Shown here piece by piece: positions 45,754 through 56,477 of a stretch of 64,000 bases of DNA. Within the stretch, counting starts at the first letter, position 1. Each line of letters opens with the position of its first letter. A program made the position numbers and the translations under genes. The notes beneath the pieces were generated by a model. That model did not search any database and was not told where the DNA came from. It saw only the letters and a list, made by a program, of their open reading frames with translations. The DNA is from Thiemannella venezuelensis (GTDB taxonomy: Bacteria; Actinomycetota; Actinomycetes; Streptosporangiales; Streptosporangiaceae): assembly GCF_014203605.1 (NCBI RefSeq), contig NZ_JACHJJ010000009.1, positions 62,001 to 126,000 of the forward strand, given 5' to 3'.

Positions 45754-46224
45754 ATGAGCAAGATCCGCACTCTTCTCGTCGGCACCGTTCTGGCCGGCTC
45801 CCTGGCCGCCGGTCTGGCCGCCGCTCCGGCGCAGGCCGCGACCGCGGGCACCGCCACCGCCGCCTCCGCTTCCGAGCAGGGGCCGAAGAAGCACTTCTTC
45901 GGCCCCTACTACTCGAAGTTCGGCGGCGGCGAGAGCTTCGGCAAGCGCTCCTACTTCAAGGGCTACTGGTACAAGGACGACGGCCGCTACTGGTTCTTCG
46001 GCGACCTGTCCGACCGCGACCGCGACCGCGAGTACAGCTACGTCTGGTTCAAGTGGCACGACCGGTTCGGCCACCACACCAAGTACTACAAGACCTTCGG
46101 TGGCAAGCACTTCCACAAGTTCGGCGGCTTCAAGGGCAGCAACGGCTTCGACGACTTCAAGATCCGCGTCTGCGAGGGCGACAACCGCTTCGACGACTGC
46201 GGCAGCTGGGGCGACGCCTTCTGA
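45754..46224 (+). CDS. Aromatic-rich secreted protein of unknown function
   Basis: A 156-residue exported protein. The signal peptide is MSKIRTLLVGTVLAGSLAAG with likely cleavage after AQA (about 29). The mature part is full of Phe, Tyr, Trp, His, Lys and Gly (KHFFGPYYSKFGGGES, FKGYWYKDDGRYWFFGDL, KWHDRFGHHTKYYKTFGGKH) with two Cys near the end (RVCEGDN, DDCGSW). The pattern recalls short repeating beta strands. AGGAGG lies before the ATG. No function is recognised; a surface or sporulation-coat role is a guess. A terminator follows. Confidence 0.8.
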   Translation: MSKIRTLLVGTVLAGSLAAGLAAAPAQAATAGTATAASASEQGPKKHFFGPYYSKFGGGESFGKRSYFKGYWYKDDGRYWFFGDLSDRDRDREYSYVWFKWHDRFGHHTKYYKTFGGKHFHKFGGFKGSNGFDDFKIRVCEGDNRFDDCGSWGDAF

Positions 46225-50529: not shown

Positions 50530-51618
50530 GTGGTACGGCTGCGCCTGGATCTCGCCTACGACGGCACCGACTTCTCCGGCTGGGCCCGGCAGCCCGGCAG
50601 GCGGACGGTGCAGGGGGAGATCGAGGAGGCGCTCGGCAAGGTCCTGCGGCTTCCCGAGCCGCCCGCGCTGACCGTGGCCGGCCGGACCGACGCCGGGGTG
50701 CACGCCCGCGGGCAGGTGGCCCACGTGGACGTGGAGCCCGAGGCGCTGGCGGTGCTGGAGAGCCGCCGCAGGACGGGCGCGCCCGCGCAGCCCGGCCGCG
50801 CCGGGCAGGGAGGACCGGAGGCCGCGGCGCCGGGACCCGGGAGACCGGCCGGAGGCGCGGCACCGGGGGCGGAGCCGCTGGACGGTCCCGCCGCATCCGG
50901 ACCGGAGCCGCTGGGCGACATCGCTGAGCGGCTCTCTGTGCTCCGCAGGAGGCTGGCCGGCATCCTCGACCTCGATGTGAGGGTTCATCGCGTCACGGTG
51001 GCTCCTGAGGGCTTCGACGCCCGCTTCTCCGCGACGTCCAGGCGGTACGCCTACCGGGTCTGCGACGCCCCCGGGGGCGTGGACCCGCTCCGCCGCCGCG
51101 AGGTCGTCTGGTACGCCCGCCCGCTCGACCTGGGCCGGCTCAACGCGGCCGCGGCGCACCTGCTCGGGGAGCACGACTTCGCGGCCTTCTGCAAGAAGCG
51201 GGAAGGTGCCACGACCATCCGCGAGCTGCAGCGGCTCGACTGGATCCGGGAGGACGGCGGCCTGCTCGTCGCGACCGTGGTCGCCGACGCGTTCTGCCAC
51301 TCGATGGTGCGGGCGCTGGTGGGCTCGCTGCTCGCGGTGGGGGAGGGCCGGCTGCCGGTGGAGTGGCCCGGGCAGGTGCTGGCGCGGGCCGTACGGGACT
51401 CCGGGGTGCACGTCGCACCCGCGCACGGGCTCTGCCTGGAGGAGGTGCGCTATCCCGAGGCCGCGGAGCTGGCCCGGCGGGCCGCGGCGACCCGCCGGGT
51501 GCGTACGCTCGGTGCCGCCGGTGCCGCCGGTGCCGCCGGTGCCGCCGGTGCCGCCGGTGCCGCCGGTGCCGCCGGTGCCGCCGGTGCCGCCGGTGCCGCC
51601 GACGGTGTCATCCGGTGA
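50530..51618 (+). CDS. truA: tRNA pseudouridine(38-40) synthase TruA, with insertion and repeat tail
   Basis: Makes pseudouridine at tRNA positions 38-40 (362 residues; usual about 250-290). The catalytic Asp is in [15 protein letters not shown] (about 57-71). The second domain has [38 protein letters not shown] and [20 protein letters not shown] Gly/Pro/Ala-rich insertion (about 83-130) splits the first domain, and the C-terminus is ten GAA tripeptides from a 9-bp repeat. The last 11 bp overlap the convergent gene that ends at 51608. GTG with GGGAGGAA upstream. Confidence 0.93.
51511..51600 (+). repeat. Ten perfect copies of a 9-bp repeat at the end of truA
   Basis: Exactly 90 bp made of ten identical 9-bp units (GGTGCCGCC). 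In truA frame it codes (Gly-Ala-Ala)x10. It is a slipped-strand hot spot; copy number may vary between strains without shifting the frame. It ends 7 bp before the stop codon of the opposite gene. Confidence 0.97.
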
Positions 51619-53689
51619 CGCGGCGCTCGACGGCCTTGGCGGTCTGGTCGCGGAACGCGCCGCTCACCTTGCCGAGGCCCTTCTCCTTGGCGGTCGGGGT
51701 GTGCCCGTCGGCGAAGGTCGCGTAGCTGAACACGATGTAGCGGCCCCACACCAGCCCCGCCGCGTAGCCGCCCGCGATGTGCACCCGCTCGGCCCCGGTG
51801 CCGGCGGTACCGGGCAGCCCGCGGAACCACAGGTTCTTCTCCAGGTTCTTGGCCTGGTCGGCCGTGACGGCCGACTCGCGGGTGGGCAGCACGGCCACGC
51901 CCGTGGTCACGGCGTACCGCTTCTTGCTGTCCACGTAGGTGGCCCGCAGCACGCGGCGGCAGTCGCCGGTGCGCAGCGCGGTGGCGAACGCGCCCGCCGC
52001 GGCCTTGTCGCACTCCTGGGTGAGGTGGGTCTTGACCCGGGTGAACCTGGTCCCGCCGATGGTCACCTTCTTGCTGAAGGCGTCGGCCACGGTCATCCTG
52101 CCCGGGTCGGTCAGCTCGGAGTCGAGCATCGCGGTGTCGGCCAGAGCGGGTTCCTCGGGCTCGTCCACCGGGCTCTCGGTGGGTTCGGGGACCGAGGTGA
52201 CGGCCGCGCCGGGCGCCGGTCCGGAGTCGGCCGACGGGTAGGCGAGGAAGGCGCCGACGCCGATGCCGCCCACCACGATCGCCACGGCGGCCGCGATCAG
52301 CGCGGTCCTGCCCCGGTTCCGGGCGGGAGAGGCGGGGGAGGGCTTGGCCGGTGCGGTGGGCCCGGCGTCGAGAGCCGAGACCGGCTGGAACGGCCCGCGC
52401 TCCCTGACCGGCTCACCGGCCGGGGGGACCGGCGGGCCGCCGGGGAACGCGGCCGGAGGGCGGGCGCCCGCGGACGGGAGCGGGGCGGACCGGTGACCGC
52501 CGGGGACGGCCGGCGGGAACGGGCCGGCCGCCCGGTCGCCCGGCGCGGCGGGAGGGATCAGAGCCGAGGGGGAGACCACGGGGATGCCGCCCGGCGGGGT
52601 CGGGTGGTCGGCCGCACCCGGCCCGTGGAAGGGCGCGGACGGGTCCGGCCCCGCGGCCGGCGGCACGGCGGGGGCGGTCTCCCGGGGAGGCGCGGGAGGC
52701 GCGGGAGGTGCGGACCACGACTCCACGGGGGTCGCGGACCACGGCTCGGCGGGAGGTGCGGGCCACGGCTCGGCGGGGGTCGCGGACGTCACCGCGCCGG
52801 AAGCGGGCGGCGCGTCGTGCGGCGCCGCATCGGGAACGGGCCGCTCACCGGAGACCGGGCCGTCGGGCTGCGGAGCCGCGGCGGAGGACGGCGCACCGGG
52901 CGCGGGCTCCGCGGCCTGCGCGACCGGGCCGCTCTCCTGCGCGACCGGGCCGGTCTCCTGCGGGGGCAGGCCGGTCCACGGGGCGGGGTCGGGCCCGGAG
53001 GGCGGCGGCGGGGCCGGCTCCCGGTGATCGGGGGCGGGGACGCGGACCTTGACCGTGTCGTCGCCGGGTTCCTCCGCGAGGAGGTCCGGCGGCCAGACGG
53101 GCACGTCACCGGGCTCGCCGGGGCGGGCGCGGTCCTCCAGGTCCGGCCAGGAGGTCTCCCCCACCGGTTCGCCCGTGGCCGCGGGCCACGGCGGGTCGCC
53201 CGGGACGCCCGAGGCGGGGGACGGCCACACGTGCATGCCCGCGGCCGCGGCGGTGAACGCCGGCGGCGGCTGCCACGAGGGCGTCCCCGGTGAGACCGGC
53301 GCGCCGGGCAGCGGCGGGTTGTCCAGCGGGACGGGCGCCGGAGGCCCGTCGCCCAGCGGGTGGCTCACCCACGGCCCGTCGGGCGGTCCGGCCGCGGCAC
53401 CGGGAGGGGAGGGCGCGAGGTCGCCCGGGACCGGCGGGGCGCCGCCGGGCTCGGGGTCGGCCAGCCAGTCGTAGGGCGTCCCGTCGTCGACGGGAACCGT
53501 CCAGGGCTGGTCCGCCAGCGGAGGCTTCGGCTCCGGCCATGCCGGAGGGAGGTGGGGCTGCTCGTCGGCTGCGGGGTCGGTCTGCGGCACGGACGGCGAA
53601 GGCCGCCCGAAGCTCGGCGGCGGCGTCGCCGGTGCGGCCGAACCGTCGGTTTCGTGCTCGGACTCGGACCCGGTTTCCTGGCCACGCAT
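51608..53689 (-). CDS. Proline-rich single-pass membrane protein, C-X16-C family (paralog 1)
   Basis: A 693-residue protein with an unusual build. About 1-455 is a low-complexity Pro/Ala/Gly region, predicted cytoplasmic and disordered. One TM helix ([20 protein letters not shown], about 460-480) follows, and then an extracytoplasmic domain of about 200 residues. That domain shares with the next gene a C-X16-C pair (ECDK...GDC), the strand [20 protein letters not shown] and the DGHTPT motif. Function is unknown; surface sensing or wall binding is possible. ATG start. It overlaps the end of truA by 11 bp. Confidence 0.85.
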
Positions 53690-53792
53690 ACACGGAAGAG
53701 TAGCGACCGCTGAAGATCGCCATGCGGGTATGGGCGTTCCTGGCCGTATCGCCCGCCGGTTTTACGGAGGAAAACGCACGAAAAAATCTTCG

Positions 53793-54848
53793 TCAGGGAC
53801 GCTTGCCGGTCAGCGAGCGGGACTCCAGAGCGGGCGTGACGGTCGCGTCGGCGACCCCGAACGCGGCCGTGTTGAGCTTCTTGGCCTCGCTCTTGGTCGG
53901 CAGGTGGCCGTCCTTGTACTGGAACCAGACCAGGACGGCGTAGTGCCCGTGCCGCCAGCCGCCGGCGAACGCCTCCCCCTTGCCGAGGAACTTGGTGGCG
54001 GAGTCCTTGCCGGGCAGCACCTTGAGGTACTCCTCCAGCTTCTTGCCGCTGACGGCCTTGACGACCTTGGCGGCGGCGGAGGAGGTTTTCAGGTTGGCCA
54101 CCCCCACGGTGCCGATGATCTTCCCTGAGGCGTCCCGGAAGCTGGCGCGCATGAGCTGGGTGCACTTGCCCGCGGTGAGAGCCTTCTGCAGCCCGGCGCC
54201 GACCACGGCGTCCTTGCACTTCTTGTCGGCCCTGCGCGCGGTCAGCTGGTAGGTCTGGCTCCCGCCCCGAACCTTCCTGCCCCCGAACAGTTCGCCGAGG
54301 GTCAGGGCGTGCGGGTCGGTGGCGCGGGACTCGGCGAACCCGAACTCGCCGCCGGGCTTGACGGGGAACACGGGGCCCGTCGCCGTCGGGGAGGGGGAAC
54401 CGGCGGTGGCCGGGGAGGCGTCCCCCGAGCCGACGAACAGGGCCAGGCCGATGCCCGCGGCGACCAGCACCACGACCACGCCGATCGCCACGAAGGTGGG
54501 CAGGAAGGAGCGCATCCCCTCCTCGTAGGGGCTCCACGCCTCCCGCTTCGGCCGCCCGGCGGACCGCGGCCCGGTCGGCGGTTCCGCGTCCGGGCGGCGC
54601 GCCTGCGGCTCCGTGTCCGAGTGGTGCGCCTGCGGCTCCGTGTCCGGGCGGCGCGCCTGCGGCTCCGCGCCCTGGCCGTACGGCGGGGACCCCGGGCCCC
54701 GGCCGTACGGCGCGGGCTGCCGGCCCTGGCCGTGGGCGGGCGAGGCGAACCAGTTCTCGCCCTGCGCGTCACCCCGGCCGGGCGGCGGCTGCGGCGCGTC
54801 GGGCCGGCCGTACGGCGGGCGGCGCGGCGAATCCCCAGGAAAACCCAT
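53793..54848 (-). CDS. Proline-rich single-pass membrane protein, C-X16-C family (paralog 2)
   Basis: A 351-residue protein with the same order as its neighbour: Pro/Gln/Arg-rich cytoplasmic part (about 1-110, with three 9-residue repeats), one TM helix (FLPTFVAIGVVVVLVAAGIGLAL, about 116-138), and an extracytoplasmic domain. The domain has KCKD...GKC (16 residues between the Cys), RASFRDASGKIIGTVGVANL and DGHLPT, aligned in order with paralog 1. Function is unknown. It lies 103 bp upstream of paralog 1 and 35 bp downstream of the CAP gene, on the same strand. Confidence 0.85.
   Translation of the reverse strand: MGFPGDSPRRPPYGRPDAPQPPPGRGDAQGENWFASPAHGQGRQPAPYGRGPGSPPYGQGAEPQARRPDTEPQAHHSDTEPQARRPDAEPPTGPRSAGRPKREAWSPYEEGMRSFLPTFVAIGVVVVLVAAGIGLALFVGSGDASPATAGSPSPTATGPVFPVKPGGEFGFAESRATDPHALTLGELFGGRKVRGGSQTYQLTARRADKKCKDAVVGAGLQKALTAGKCTQLMRASFRDASGKIIGTVGVANLKTSSAAAKVVKAVSGKKLEEYLKVLPGKDSATKFLGKGEAFAGGWRHGHYAVLVWFQYKDGHLPTKSEAKKLNTAAFGVADATVTPALESRSLTGKRP
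54580..54660 (-). repeat. Three 27-bp repeats in paralog 2
   Basis: Three in-frame 27-bp units (54580-54606, 54607-54633, 54634-54660) encode EPQARRPDT-like 9-residue motifs with a few substitutions. Signs of recent tandem duplication in the disordered region. Confidence 0.85.
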
Positions 54849-54883
54849 GCGCTGAGACTAGCTCCGTATCGAGGCCGATCCGC

Positions 54884-55660
54884 TCACGAATACCCGAAAT
54901 CCTGAGTCCACCAGGGCCCGCCGGGGCCGTACGCGACCCCGACGCCCGTGGCGGTGAGCGCGCAGTTGAGGATGTTGCCCCGGTGCCTGCTGCTCGCCAT
55001 CCAGCTCCGCACCGCCTCCTCGGCGGAGGTGGAGCCCCTGCCGATGTTCTCCGCGCCCCCGTCGTAGTACCCGGCGTCCTCCATCCGGTCCCAGGGGGAG
55101 GCCCCGCCCGGGGAGTCGTGCGTGAACAGGCCGCTGGAGGCCATCTCGGCCGAGTGGACCCGGGCCGACCGGACCAGCCGGGCGTCGACCTTGAACGGGG
55201 CGCATCCGGCCTTCCTGCGGGCGGCGTCGGTGAGCCGGACGACCTCGCTCTCCAGCGCGCTCAGCGGCGGCTCGCCGGTCTCCTCCTGCTGGCCGCGGAT
55301 GACGTAGCGGGAGCCGTCGTCCTCCCCGGCGGAACCGTCGATCGCGTTGCGGGGGCTGCTGGAGGCGCGCGGGGTGAGCCGGTCGTCCCCCTCGGGGACC
55401 GCGGTGGGCCGGGAGACCCGGCCCAGCGGGGCCCGCCGGGCGGTGACCCGCCGGCCGGTGGCCCGGTCCGCCCGCACCTCCCTGGTCGGCGAGGGCGCCG
55501 CCTGGGCGTCGTTCAGGTAGACCTGGTCGGCGACCTCCTCGCCGCGGCTCTCCCTGCCGATGACGAACCCGAGCATCAGCACCGCCGCCAGGCAGGCGAA
55601 TATCCCCATACGGCGCAATCGGGCACGCTGGGTAAGCCTGAGGTAAGGGGACTGCCACAT
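54884..55660 (-). CDS. CAP/SCP-domain (CRISP-PR1) membrane-anchored protein
   Basis: A 258-residue protein with a basic N-terminus, one TM helix (MGIFACLAAVLMLGFVIG, about 19-36), a Pro/Arg/Thr-rich linker (about 40-125) and a CAP domain (about 135-258). The CAP motifs are visible: VRLTDAARRKAGCAPFKVDARL, HSAEMASSGLFTHDSP, GAENIG, WMASSRHRGNILN, and VGVAYGPGGPWWTQDFG. The His, Glu and second His of the CAP cavity are present. CAP proteins are secreted and of varied role; in bacteria they may bind lipids or the wall. ATG 55660 chosen (the ATG at about 55608 is possible). A group of three with the next two genes. Confidence 0.85.
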   Translation of the reverse strand: MWQSPYLRLTQRARLRRMGIFACLAAVLMLGFVIGRESRGEEVADQVYLNDAQAAPSPTREVRADRATGRRVTARRAPLGRVSRPTAVPEGDDRLTPRASSSPRNAIDGSAGEDDGSRYVIRGQQEETGEPPLSALESEVVRLTDAARRKAGCAPFKVDARLVRSARVHSAEMASSGLFTHDSPGGASPWDRMEDAGYYDGGAENIGRGSTSAEEAVRSWMASSRHRGNILNCALTATGVGVAYGPGGPWWTQDFGYS

Positions 55661-56033: not shown

Positions 56034-56477
56034 GTGCGCACGTACACACCCAAGCCTGCTGAAGTCGAGCGTCAGTGGTATGTCATCGACGCCACCGACA
56101 TCGTGCTCGGCCGGCTGGCCAGCCACGTCGCGACGCTGCTTCGCGGTAAGCACAAGCCGATCTTCGCGAACCACGTCGACACCGGTGACTTCGTCATCAT
56201 CATCAACGCCGACAAGATCGCACTGACCGGCAACAAGCTCGAGCAGAAGAAGGCTTACCGCCACTCGGGCTACCCGGGCGGTCTGCGTTCCGTGACCTAC
56301 GCCGAGCTCATGGACAAGCGTCCCGACCGCGCCGTCGAGAAGGCGGTGAAGGGCATGCTGCCGAAGAACGCCCTCGGCCGGAAGATGATCAAGAAGCTCA
56401 AGGTCTACTCCGGTTCCGAGCACCCGCACCAGGCGCAGCAGCCGGTGCCCTTCGAGATCACCCAGATCGCCCAGTAG
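56034..56477 (+). CDS. rplM: 50S ribosomal protein L13
   Basis: L13 (147 residues). [38 protein letters not shown] and [19 protein letters not shown] are conserved. GTG start. It is first of the rplM-rpsI pair, 70 bp before rpsI. Confidence 0.98.

Follow-up and report, generated by a model that had tools for sequence, protein, structure and literature searches.

MucB and RseB are soluble periplasmic two-domain proteins of Gammaproteobacteria, with a sensor role beside a serine-protease pathway. EccB (TIGR03919) consists of a cytoplasmic N-terminus, one transmembrane (TM) helix and an outer domain, and is paired with a mycosin-type S8 protease (TIGR03921). In ESX-5, the MycP5 trimer caps the chamber of EccB5 (PMC8131196), and MycP is reported to be needed for secretion, its protease activity being dispensable (PMC5082899). 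The fold of the PknH sensor domain (PF14032; 4ESQ) has been solved from M. tuberculosis and its ligand was termed unknown in a 2012 review (PMC3601408); this extracellular domain holds two intramolecular disulfides (PMC4118811; PMC3601408). Finally, TiME (Rv3705c; 7CU8/7CU9) is a protein of the mycobacterial outer envelope that forms double-layered rings (PMC11434571).

The locus described here lies between truA (50530-51618) and rplM (56034-56477) in a window of 64,000 nucleotides, i.e., the whole stretch of DNA that was analysed, and encodes two membrane proteins, A and B, together with a CAP-domain protein. By predicted fold, the outer domain of A and B is a kinase-less branch of the PknH/TiME/RseB-C fold with its own single Cys pair, since the best match of both models is 4ESQ. 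Like the PknH sensor domain, it is placed outside, behind one TM helix; unlike PknH, A and B lack a kinase domain (no Pfam or NCBIfam match), have one conserved Cys pair instead of two disulfides, and are two unlike copies in tandem. With TiME they share the predicted fold, but A and B carry Pro-rich cytoplasmic tails, and with the C-terminal domain of MucB/RseB (6IN9, 2P4B) a fold core of 97-99 residues (Z 6.1-7.2); the sensor role of the latter is a lead only for this family. As for the EccB-mycosin pair, the family resembles it in topology and in joining a bitopic protein to a mycosin-type S8 protease, but there is no sequence match to EccB and the outer domain has another predicted fold.

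Genes and putative promoters of the truA-rplM interval

The sequence-only reading had placed three minus-strand genes in this gap, and their coordinates, strand and order all proved correct (Table 1). It had also recognised the CAP-domain gene, which is a plain PF00188 member (75.6 bits vs. a cut-off of 21.1) like other CAP/YkwD-type proteins (PF00188, TIGR02909), from which it differs by its N-terminal TM anchor and long linker; its TIGR02909 score (93.8 bits) lies under the cut-off of 171. The start of the CAP gene is likely the ATG at 55660, and a "GMWQ"-like region surrounds this start in most relatives among those listed.

Table 1. Positions of the genes, domains and promoter-like elements in the window
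Feature	Position	Strand	Basis or description
Gene A	51608..53689	-	ORF; 693 aa, one TM helix between a long Pro-rich tail in the cytoplasm and a PknH-like outer domain
A, Pro-rich cytoplasmic part	52310..53689	-	460 aa; conserved N-terminal peptide MRGQ...PPPSFGQ
A, TM helix (approximate)	52238..52309	-	hydrophobic stretch in sequence
A, outer domain, PknH/TiME-like predicted fold	51611..52129	-	HMM hit; AF2 pLDDT 92.6; 4esq Z 11.2
Gene B	53793..54848	-	ORF; 351 aa, one TM helix between a shorter Pro-rich tail in the cytoplasm and a PknH-like outer domain
B, Pro-rich cytoplasmic part	54507..54848	-	114 aa
B, TM helix (approximate)	54423..54506	-	hydrophobic stretch in sequence
B, outer domain, PknH/TiME-like predicted fold	53796..54338	-	HMM hit; AF2 pLDDT 94.5; 4esq Z 9.2
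CAP-domain protein, N-terminal TM helix	54884..55660	-	PF00188 E 7.3e-21; sequence
CAP domain proper	54896..55237	-	PF00188 match, residues 229-342 of longest ORF
TACTCT, -10-like element of A	53697..53702	-	13 nt before ATG of A; putative leaderless promoter
TAGTCT, -10-like element of B	54855..54860	-	12 nt before ATG of B; putative leaderless promoter

The start of A (ATG 53689) is backed by a -10 element and by the conservation of the N-terminal peptide, which in 70 loci is kept beyond MRGQ, the string used to find it. That of B (ATG 54848) is backed by the N-terminus in relatives and, again, by a -10 element. Upstream of A, TANNNT is found at -13 in 69 of 71 loci and at -12 in the other two, and none of the 71 has a Shine-Dalgarno (SD)-like site; upstream of B, TANNNT lies at -12 or -13 in 74 of 75 loci, and eight of the 75 show an SD-like site. 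From their upstream sequences, A and B would each be transcribed without a leader from a conserved -10 element of their own, which weakens the argument for an operon of the three genes.

Homology and predicted fold of the outer domain

The outer domains of A and B are 27-28% identical and align with a Smith-Waterman score of 170, while 2,000 shuffles gave a mean of 35 and a maximum of 65; the two domains are thus homologous and the genes paralogs, as had been proposed. The DGHxPT motif is indeed present in both (DGHTPT, DGHLPT), while the C-X16-C pair holds for A and becomes C-X17-C in B. In the family alignment both Cys are kept in 241 of 242 distinct domains, the next Cys column being occupied in five, and we infer that the pair forms a disulfide.

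Whole A and B gave no match reaching the cut-off in Pfam or NCBIfam and none in PHROGs; the outer domain, for which the sequence-only reading had suggested such a search, gave nothing above cut-off in Pfam or NCBIfam either, and no PDB sequence matched up to E 10 when searched by profile with A1 and A3. The family is therefore without a model in the Pfam and NCBIfam copies searched. Peptidase_M17_N, Rv1815_serprot, intimin, DUF7059, DUF7373 and others were rejected as sub-threshold, chance-level matches.

PF14032 (PknH_C; cut-off 27 bits) deserves separate treatment. Its curated cut-off was reached by none of the 30 family members scanned, of which four match at E <= 0.5 (best 0.018). Of the 13 genomes of family f1 searched, eight contain 14 sub-threshold matches, six on members of this family and eight outside it. 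The best weak match overall is not on a family member (G029, E 0.0025), the best on a member having E 0.0038. In the window's own genome the only weak match falls on a family member; sub-cut-off matches also occur in three of 14 control genomes. Weak PknH_C matches are commoner on family members than the small number of the latter suggests; being no stronger than background, they do not establish descent shared with PknH_C. Comparison by hhalign (-norealign) with 15 PknH_C sequences, taken from 16 loci (L190 had no ORF of the expected length), gave a non-significant alignment of 56 columns (probability 1.8%, P 0.027) that pairs the first Cys of the family with the first Cys of PknH_C; the 12-column match obtained with default settings is meaningless.

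The AF2 models of the outer domains (pLDDT 94.5 for B and 92.6 for A) both have 4ESQ as first match in VIA-align, with Z 9.2, rmsd 3.9 and 135 aligned residues for B, and Z 11.2, rmsd 3.5 and 135 aligned for A. TiME follows (7cu9/7cu8, Z 8.1 for B and 9.2 for A), then 4tmd (7.1 and 8.2) and 6in9 (6.7 and 7.2); the PknH and TiME structures align over 134-136 residues, and the C-terminal part of RseB (2P4B) matches the B model with Z 6.1. With the B model, Foldseek produced no match at E <= 0.001; an unrelated megabody headed its list (E 0.058), followed by 4esq (E 0.069, prob 0.51). The domain had been rightly seen as belonging to no named family at the Pfam and NCBIfam cut-offs, but it is not undescribed in its predicted fold, since both models point to PknH, TiME and MucB.

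Because TiME is the second-best match of both models, the outer domains could also be imagined to assemble into rings or tubes that cross the outer envelope and serve secretion or uptake, as the rings of TiME would suggest (PMC11434571). We regard such an assembly as very improbable: a secreted ring protein has little in common with two dissimilar paralogs that carry long tails in the cytoplasm. Moreover, the hosts of A and B belong to an order that is not known to have a mycomembrane.

Distribution, neighbours and possible partners

In the samples searched, the family was found only in Actinomycetes and occurs in three settings: between truA and rplM, as tandem pairs between trpA and lgt, and directly before genes for S8 proteases of the mycosin-like type, which it precedes on the upstream side. 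The trio was recovered in 71 of 76 named loci by a scan able to detect only genes close to B, and the remaining five stop at contig ends. In the tree, truA-rplM singletons from a different family fall inside the A clade (98/95), and B forms a separate clade (100/99). The tandem duplication suggested earlier is consequently old, and a recent one is rejected. Searches of the literature yielded no paper on the locus tags SCO4732/SCO4733, and two papers on truA, rplM, ESX-4 or gene order dealt with other bacteria.

The CAP protein had been suggested as the partner of the paralogs. It is present in 10 of 28 truA-rplM stretches, window included, and absent from 18, four of which (L051, L052, L067, L073) end before rplM; it is therefore not a general partner of the family. 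Of the partners found, a mycosin-like protease is the most constant, at loci other than that of the window. In all 41 S8-linked family genes (26 loci), the in-frame start of the S8 gene overlaps the family gene, by 4 nt (10 genes) or 7 nt (31 genes). On the tree, 23 of these 41 genes make up one side of a branch (100/99) across three families; the tree includes 7 of the 17 S8-linked f1 loci, and the tree program warns of long branches joining within the part of the S8-linked group that lies outside Streptosporangiaceae. Four of the 41 proteases were scanned with TIGR03921 (cut-off 278.75 bits): L249 scores 338.3, whereas L035 (268.6 and 217.8) and L257 (179.1) remain below. The second protease has lost the catalytic triad, as read from aligned positions, in 7 of 15 cases, and the gene pair is nevertheless retained.

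Because relatives at other loci overlap the gene of a mycosin-type surface protease, a role of the family in sensing or scaffolding some component of the cell envelope is suggested. We tentatively favour, without being confident of it, an extracytoplasmic sensor or adaptor with a PknH-fold outer domain, a tail directed to a cytoplasmic partner, and A and B acting as an unlike pair. The outer domain would bind a ligand or partner in the envelope and serve an extracytoplasmic partner encoded beside it, which in one clade may be the mycosin-like protease, itself anchored in the membrane, and at truA-rplM in Streptosporangiaceae the CAP protein; the long flexible tail would let its end peptide reach the cytoplasmic partner. 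In the maps made, no protease lies beside truA-rplM or trpA-lgt members, so a role derived from the clade with proteases may not apply to them.

Somewhat less probable is the broader reading of an undescribed envelope module, in which kinase-less PknH-fold receptors would be dedicated partners of mycosin-type proteases and pseudoproteases outside type VII loci, A and B being the free-standing branch. It would take in overlapping pairs in Streptosporangiaceae, in a Streptomyces-like family and in one genome of a Mycobacteriales-like family, where in at least one genome the truA-rplM interval holds an ESX-4-like cluster. A kinase-less branch in soil actinomycetes, with a fixed gene partner in one clade, offers a route to what the PknH fold binds and does without a kinase, and the inactive second protease parallels the protease-independent role of MycP (PMC5082899), which would become testable outside type VII secretion.

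The same pairing could instead reflect a scaffold of the EccB kind, in which the family protein assembles the mycosin-like (pseudo)protease and anchors it in the membrane without sensing, as EccB5 does for MycP5 in ESX-5. The shared topology, the pairs kept despite the lost triad, the MycP5 trimer capping EccB5 (PMC8131196), the dispensable activity of MycP (PMC5082899) and the truA-rplM interval of one f6 genome, which carries two WXG100 genes together with those for EccB, mycosin, EccD and EccC, would all fit. However, EccB (TIGR03919, which scores 599.2 on the positive case L242:4319-5794) matches neither protein up to E 5, and the members in the window have no protease neighbour. Furthermore, inspection by eye picked out no EccC, EccD or WXG100 gene, either at the two S8-linked loci that were read completely (L035, L071) or among the genes listed for L249-L257; in these, family models were applied to single genes only. 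We therefore consider this scaffold unlikely; EccB structures were not among the 50 matches listed for each model, which excludes nothing.

Alternatively, the family protein could be the substrate of the S8 protease, similar to an anti-sigma factor or receptor, with cleavage freeing the tail and the outer domain as an RseB-like guard. The overlap of the two genes, the conserved end peptide of the A tail and the MucB/RseB C-terminal parts among the next fold matches (Z 6.7 and 6.1 for B; MucB 7.2 for A) are compatible with regulated proteolysis. It is made decidedly improbable by the proteases inactive by sequence (7/15), by the loss of the B tail at one locus (see below) and by the tails themselves, in which no known anti-sigma domain was matched in Pfam or NCBIfam.

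Cytoplasmic tails

In both A and B a Pro-rich cytoplasmic part precedes a single hydrophobic stretch, and the two parts are very unequal in length, as first noted from the sequence; Pro accounts for 28.5% of the 460 residues in A and 21.9% of the 114 in B. An artefact of GC-rich frames is rejected, because the N-terminal peptide and the -10 element are both conserved. Across 72 loci the A tail, if counting begins at the stop codon before it, ranges from 335 to 1741 residues. In five comparisons, which for the tails take in a few codons between that stop and the ATG, dN/dS is 0.45-0.58 for the A tail and 0.69-0.80 for the B tail, a weaker constraint than the purifying selection on the outer domains (0.13-0.44).

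Tails evolving this fast (0.45-0.80) and so variable in length might be expected of ordinary surface or spacer proteins of low complexity, which sense nothing and are retained because they sit next to ribosomal genes. We find this quite unlikely, given the selection on the outer domain, its near-invariant Cys pair, Gly and Tyr columns (242 domains), and the retention of the family at one place across families. At the Herbidospora daliensis locus L136, the tail of B is missing and a lipobox-like signal stands in its place, so that the outer domain would seem to be the constant part of the protein. An S(F/Y)GQ motif is common to the A tails and the f20 proteins in few rows, from which we make no claim.

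Genes between truA and rplM

The gap between truA and rplM holds three minus-strand genes, encoding a CAP-domain protein (CAP; PF00188) and two single-TM proteins, A (693 aa) and B (351 aa). The sequence-only reading had taken A and B for paralogs, and this was borne out: their outer domains align with a score of 170, while 2,000 shuffles reach 65 at most. This first observation is right, and wider in reach than sequence alone could show. In both proteins the Pro-rich N-terminal part (hereafter the tail) is followed by one hydrophobic stretch and an outer domain of about 175–180 residues. The positive-inside rule is the basis for orienting TM proteins; since Arg residues precede the TM helix and none lies directly behind it, the N-terminus of A and B is placed inside. 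A runs 11 nt into the convergent end of truA. The window's source is Planomonospora-like, the closest named locus belonging to Planomonospora sp. ID67723 (92% identity).

Features of the truA–rplM region and its surroundings (window positions)
Feature	Position	Strand	Description
Small gene	45754-46224		Secreted-protein gene with signal-peptide-like start, amid ribosomal genes; among the other loci, homologs in L036 and L037 alone (neighbour clustering)
truA	50530-51618	+	Flank of the three-gene gap
truA 3′ end	51510-51601		Perfect 9-nt repeat (10.2 copies) that encodes (Gly-Ala-Ala)n and gives this tRNA-modifying enzyme a low-complexity tail
A	51608-53689	minus	460-residue Pro-rich N-terminal part, 28.5% Pro
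B	53793-54848	minus	114-residue Pro-rich N-terminal part, 21.9% Pro
CAP	54884-55660	minus	Gene between truA and rplM
rplM	56034-56477	+	Other flank of the three-gene gap

A scan able to find only genes close to B detected CAP, B and A together in 71 of 76 named loci, the remaining five hitting a contig end (four before A, one before CAP). The expectation that relatives carry the same trio thus holds at these loci but not more widely, as CAP occurs in only 10 of the 28 truA/rplM stretches (window counted); of the 18 stretches without it, four end before rplM. Wherever the trio is complete (71/71) its genes share one strand, with median gaps of 36.5 nt for CAP-B (70 loci) and 106 nt for B-A (69 loci). 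The motif M(R/S)G(Q/K) served to locate the start of A, so its letters are no evidence for that start; support comes from the conserved letters behind the motif, namely D or E at position 5 in 70/70 loci, S at position 8 in 67, E at position 9 in 66 and H at position 10 in 63. PPSFG lies within the first 40 residues of A in 69 of these 70 loci, and B begins with MGFPGEPPRRQPY or similar in most of 16 loci listed. TANNNT precedes the ATG of A in 71/71 loci (by 13 nt in 69 and 12 nt in two) and that of B, by 12–13 nt, in 74/75, whereas an SD-like site is found in 0/71 and 8/75 loci, respectively. These upstream sequences suggest a separate leaderless promoter for each of A and B, which would make the trio a neighbourhood and not a simple single operon.

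In comparisons with five relatives, the outer domains have a dN/dS of 0.13–0.44 and the tails one of 0.45–0.80. In Herbidospora daliensis (L136), B has neither tail nor TM helix, and the outer domain is carried by a lipoprotein-like N-terminus with a lipobox-like signal peptide.

Predicted fold of the outer domain

AlphaFold, given 63 and 52 rows, yielded models with a mean pLDDT of 94.5 (B) and 92.6 (A). Foldseek with the B model returned nothing at E <= 0.001; an unrelated megabody ranked first and the PknH sensor domain (4esq) second (E 0.069). VIA-align, run on candidates supplied by Foldseek, gave for B Z scores of 9.2 with 4esq, 8.1 with TiME (7cu9), 7.1 with the Rv0999 ortholog (4tmd), 6.7 with MucB (6in9) and 5.7–6.1 with RseB and others; for A the values were 11.2, 9.2, 8.2 and 7.2 in the same order, then 6.2 with TP0453. 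Since, by the tool's own note, a best Z of 7–8 is typical of models without a clear match, only PknH and, for A, TiME are clear matches. The outer domain is accordingly predicted from the models to have the same fold as the PknH sensor.

The sequence evidence agrees weakly in direction. Of all Pfam families, PF14032 (PknH_C) is matched by the largest number of the 30 family members scanned, namely four (best E 0.018), and hhalign gave a probability of 1.8% (not significant; P 0.027). A whole-genome search with PF14032 found 14 matches, all below threshold, in 8 of the 13 genomes of the taxonomic family f1. Six of these matches fall on members of the small A/B family; the six are no stronger than the search's other weak matches, and 3 of 14 control genomes also match. 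With all its matches sub-threshold, the A/B family does not qualify for membership in PknH_C. Two disulfides are reported for PknH (PMC4118811, PMC3601408), whereas the A/B domain has one pair of Cys, both kept in 241 of 242 distinct outer domains. The A/B family represents an unnamed variant within a known class of folds, and one of its clades has a striking gene partner.

Distribution and settings of the A/B family

With an outer-domain HMM, 64 ORFs were identified at 41 loci, of which 40 had been fetched and one is in the window; truA and/or rplM adjoin the gene in 28. In 11 others two copies neighbour lgt and a DsbA-like gene, with trpA, MauE and gltB each present in 10/11. In all 11 (L034, L047, L054, L056, L058, L060, L062, L064, L066, L070 and L072) these tandem pairs are immediately downstream of lgt and the DsbA-like gene, a context linked to the formation of lipoproteins and disulfides; a VIT1-family gene intervenes at L034, L047 and L070. 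At two loci the family lies downstream of moeZ, adjoining S8 proteases. L050 and L073, on two contigs of one genome, are probably halves of one locus.

The family occurs in 82 of 296 genomes of a class-wide sample and in 10 of 246 of a phylum sample, all ten from the window's class. Fourteen further places (L204-L217) all have truA and/or rplM (both in nine, truA alone in four, rplM alone in one); they include families f19 and f20, where the gene lies between truA and rplM, at times together with several additional genes, as well as f39, where it lies only on the side of truA. A few weak matches lie elsewhere (e.g., G012:C91, G002:C171, G018:C146). Probably f20/g53 corresponds to Streptomyces, and f6 to a family of Mycobacteriales.

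In the tree, the A clade includes f20 truA-rplM singletons (support 98/95), and B forms a separate clade (100/99), relatives' singletons included. The split between A and B thus far predates the genus, with apparent loss of either one in several lines; tandem duplication fits the two homologous neighbours, but not as a recent event.

Among the matches listed for the class-wide and phylum samples, G135 is the only f6 genome with a family member. The rplM region was fetched for eight f6 genomes; six were read as gene lists, and L242 was scanned. The truA-rplM interval of L242 is occupied by an ESX-4-like type VII secretion cluster (EccB, mycosin, EccD, EccC and two WXG100 genes). L246 and L247 resemble it by gene list only, truA not being seen in L246; L241 and L248 have mixed gene content, and the stretch of L244 examined has no EccB/mycosin/EccD/EccC/WXG100-type cluster.

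Mycosin-like S8 proteases and a possible working

The S8-linked set comprised 15 places picked from family-search matches plus L035 and L071 (17 loci), and nine further places (eight in seven f20 genomes, one in f6) where a family gene is likewise followed by an S8 gene, making 26 loci. Among the 17, one family gene precedes one protease at two loci, and two such pairs follow each other at 15; moeZ adjoins 16, is divergent in L228 and was not found in L230. Across the 26 loci, the stop of the family gene shares 4 nt (10 cases) or 7 nt (31 cases) with the in-frame start of an S8 gene in 41/41 cases, which are not 41 independent events. In a tree of 95 rows, S8-linked members of f1 genomes (14 rows) and other families (nine rows) group behind one branch (100/99), which suggests an old, inherited pairing.

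For this family, architecture, homology, predicted fold, synteny and gene overlap are observed; a role as an extracytoplasmic sensor/adaptor can be envisaged. The outer domain would bind an envelope ligand or partner, which in one clade may be the mycosin-like (pseudo)protease and at truA-rplM in Streptosporangiaceae perhaps CAP, and the tail, whose end peptide is conserved, would extend into the cytoplasm. We give this mechanism as a whole slightly less than an even chance, our confidence being lowered by weak PknH_C matches no stronger than background. Its main rival is that the family protein serves as a scaffold for the mycosin-like protease, given the non-proteolytic role of MycP (PMC5082899) and the MycP5-EccB5 chamber (PMC8131196). 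The rings formed by TiME (PMC11434571) offer no more than a lead.

Four S8 proteins were scanned with the mycosin model TIGR03921 (cut-off 278.75): that of L249 scores above it (338.3), those of L035 (268.6, 217.8) and L257 (179.1) below. At the positions that BLAST aligns with those of the L035 proteins, the catalytic Asp-His-Ser is present in 26/26 first but only 8/15 second proteases. At L222-L227 and L231 the second copy has lost the triad (7/15), yet the overlapping partner gene is kept.
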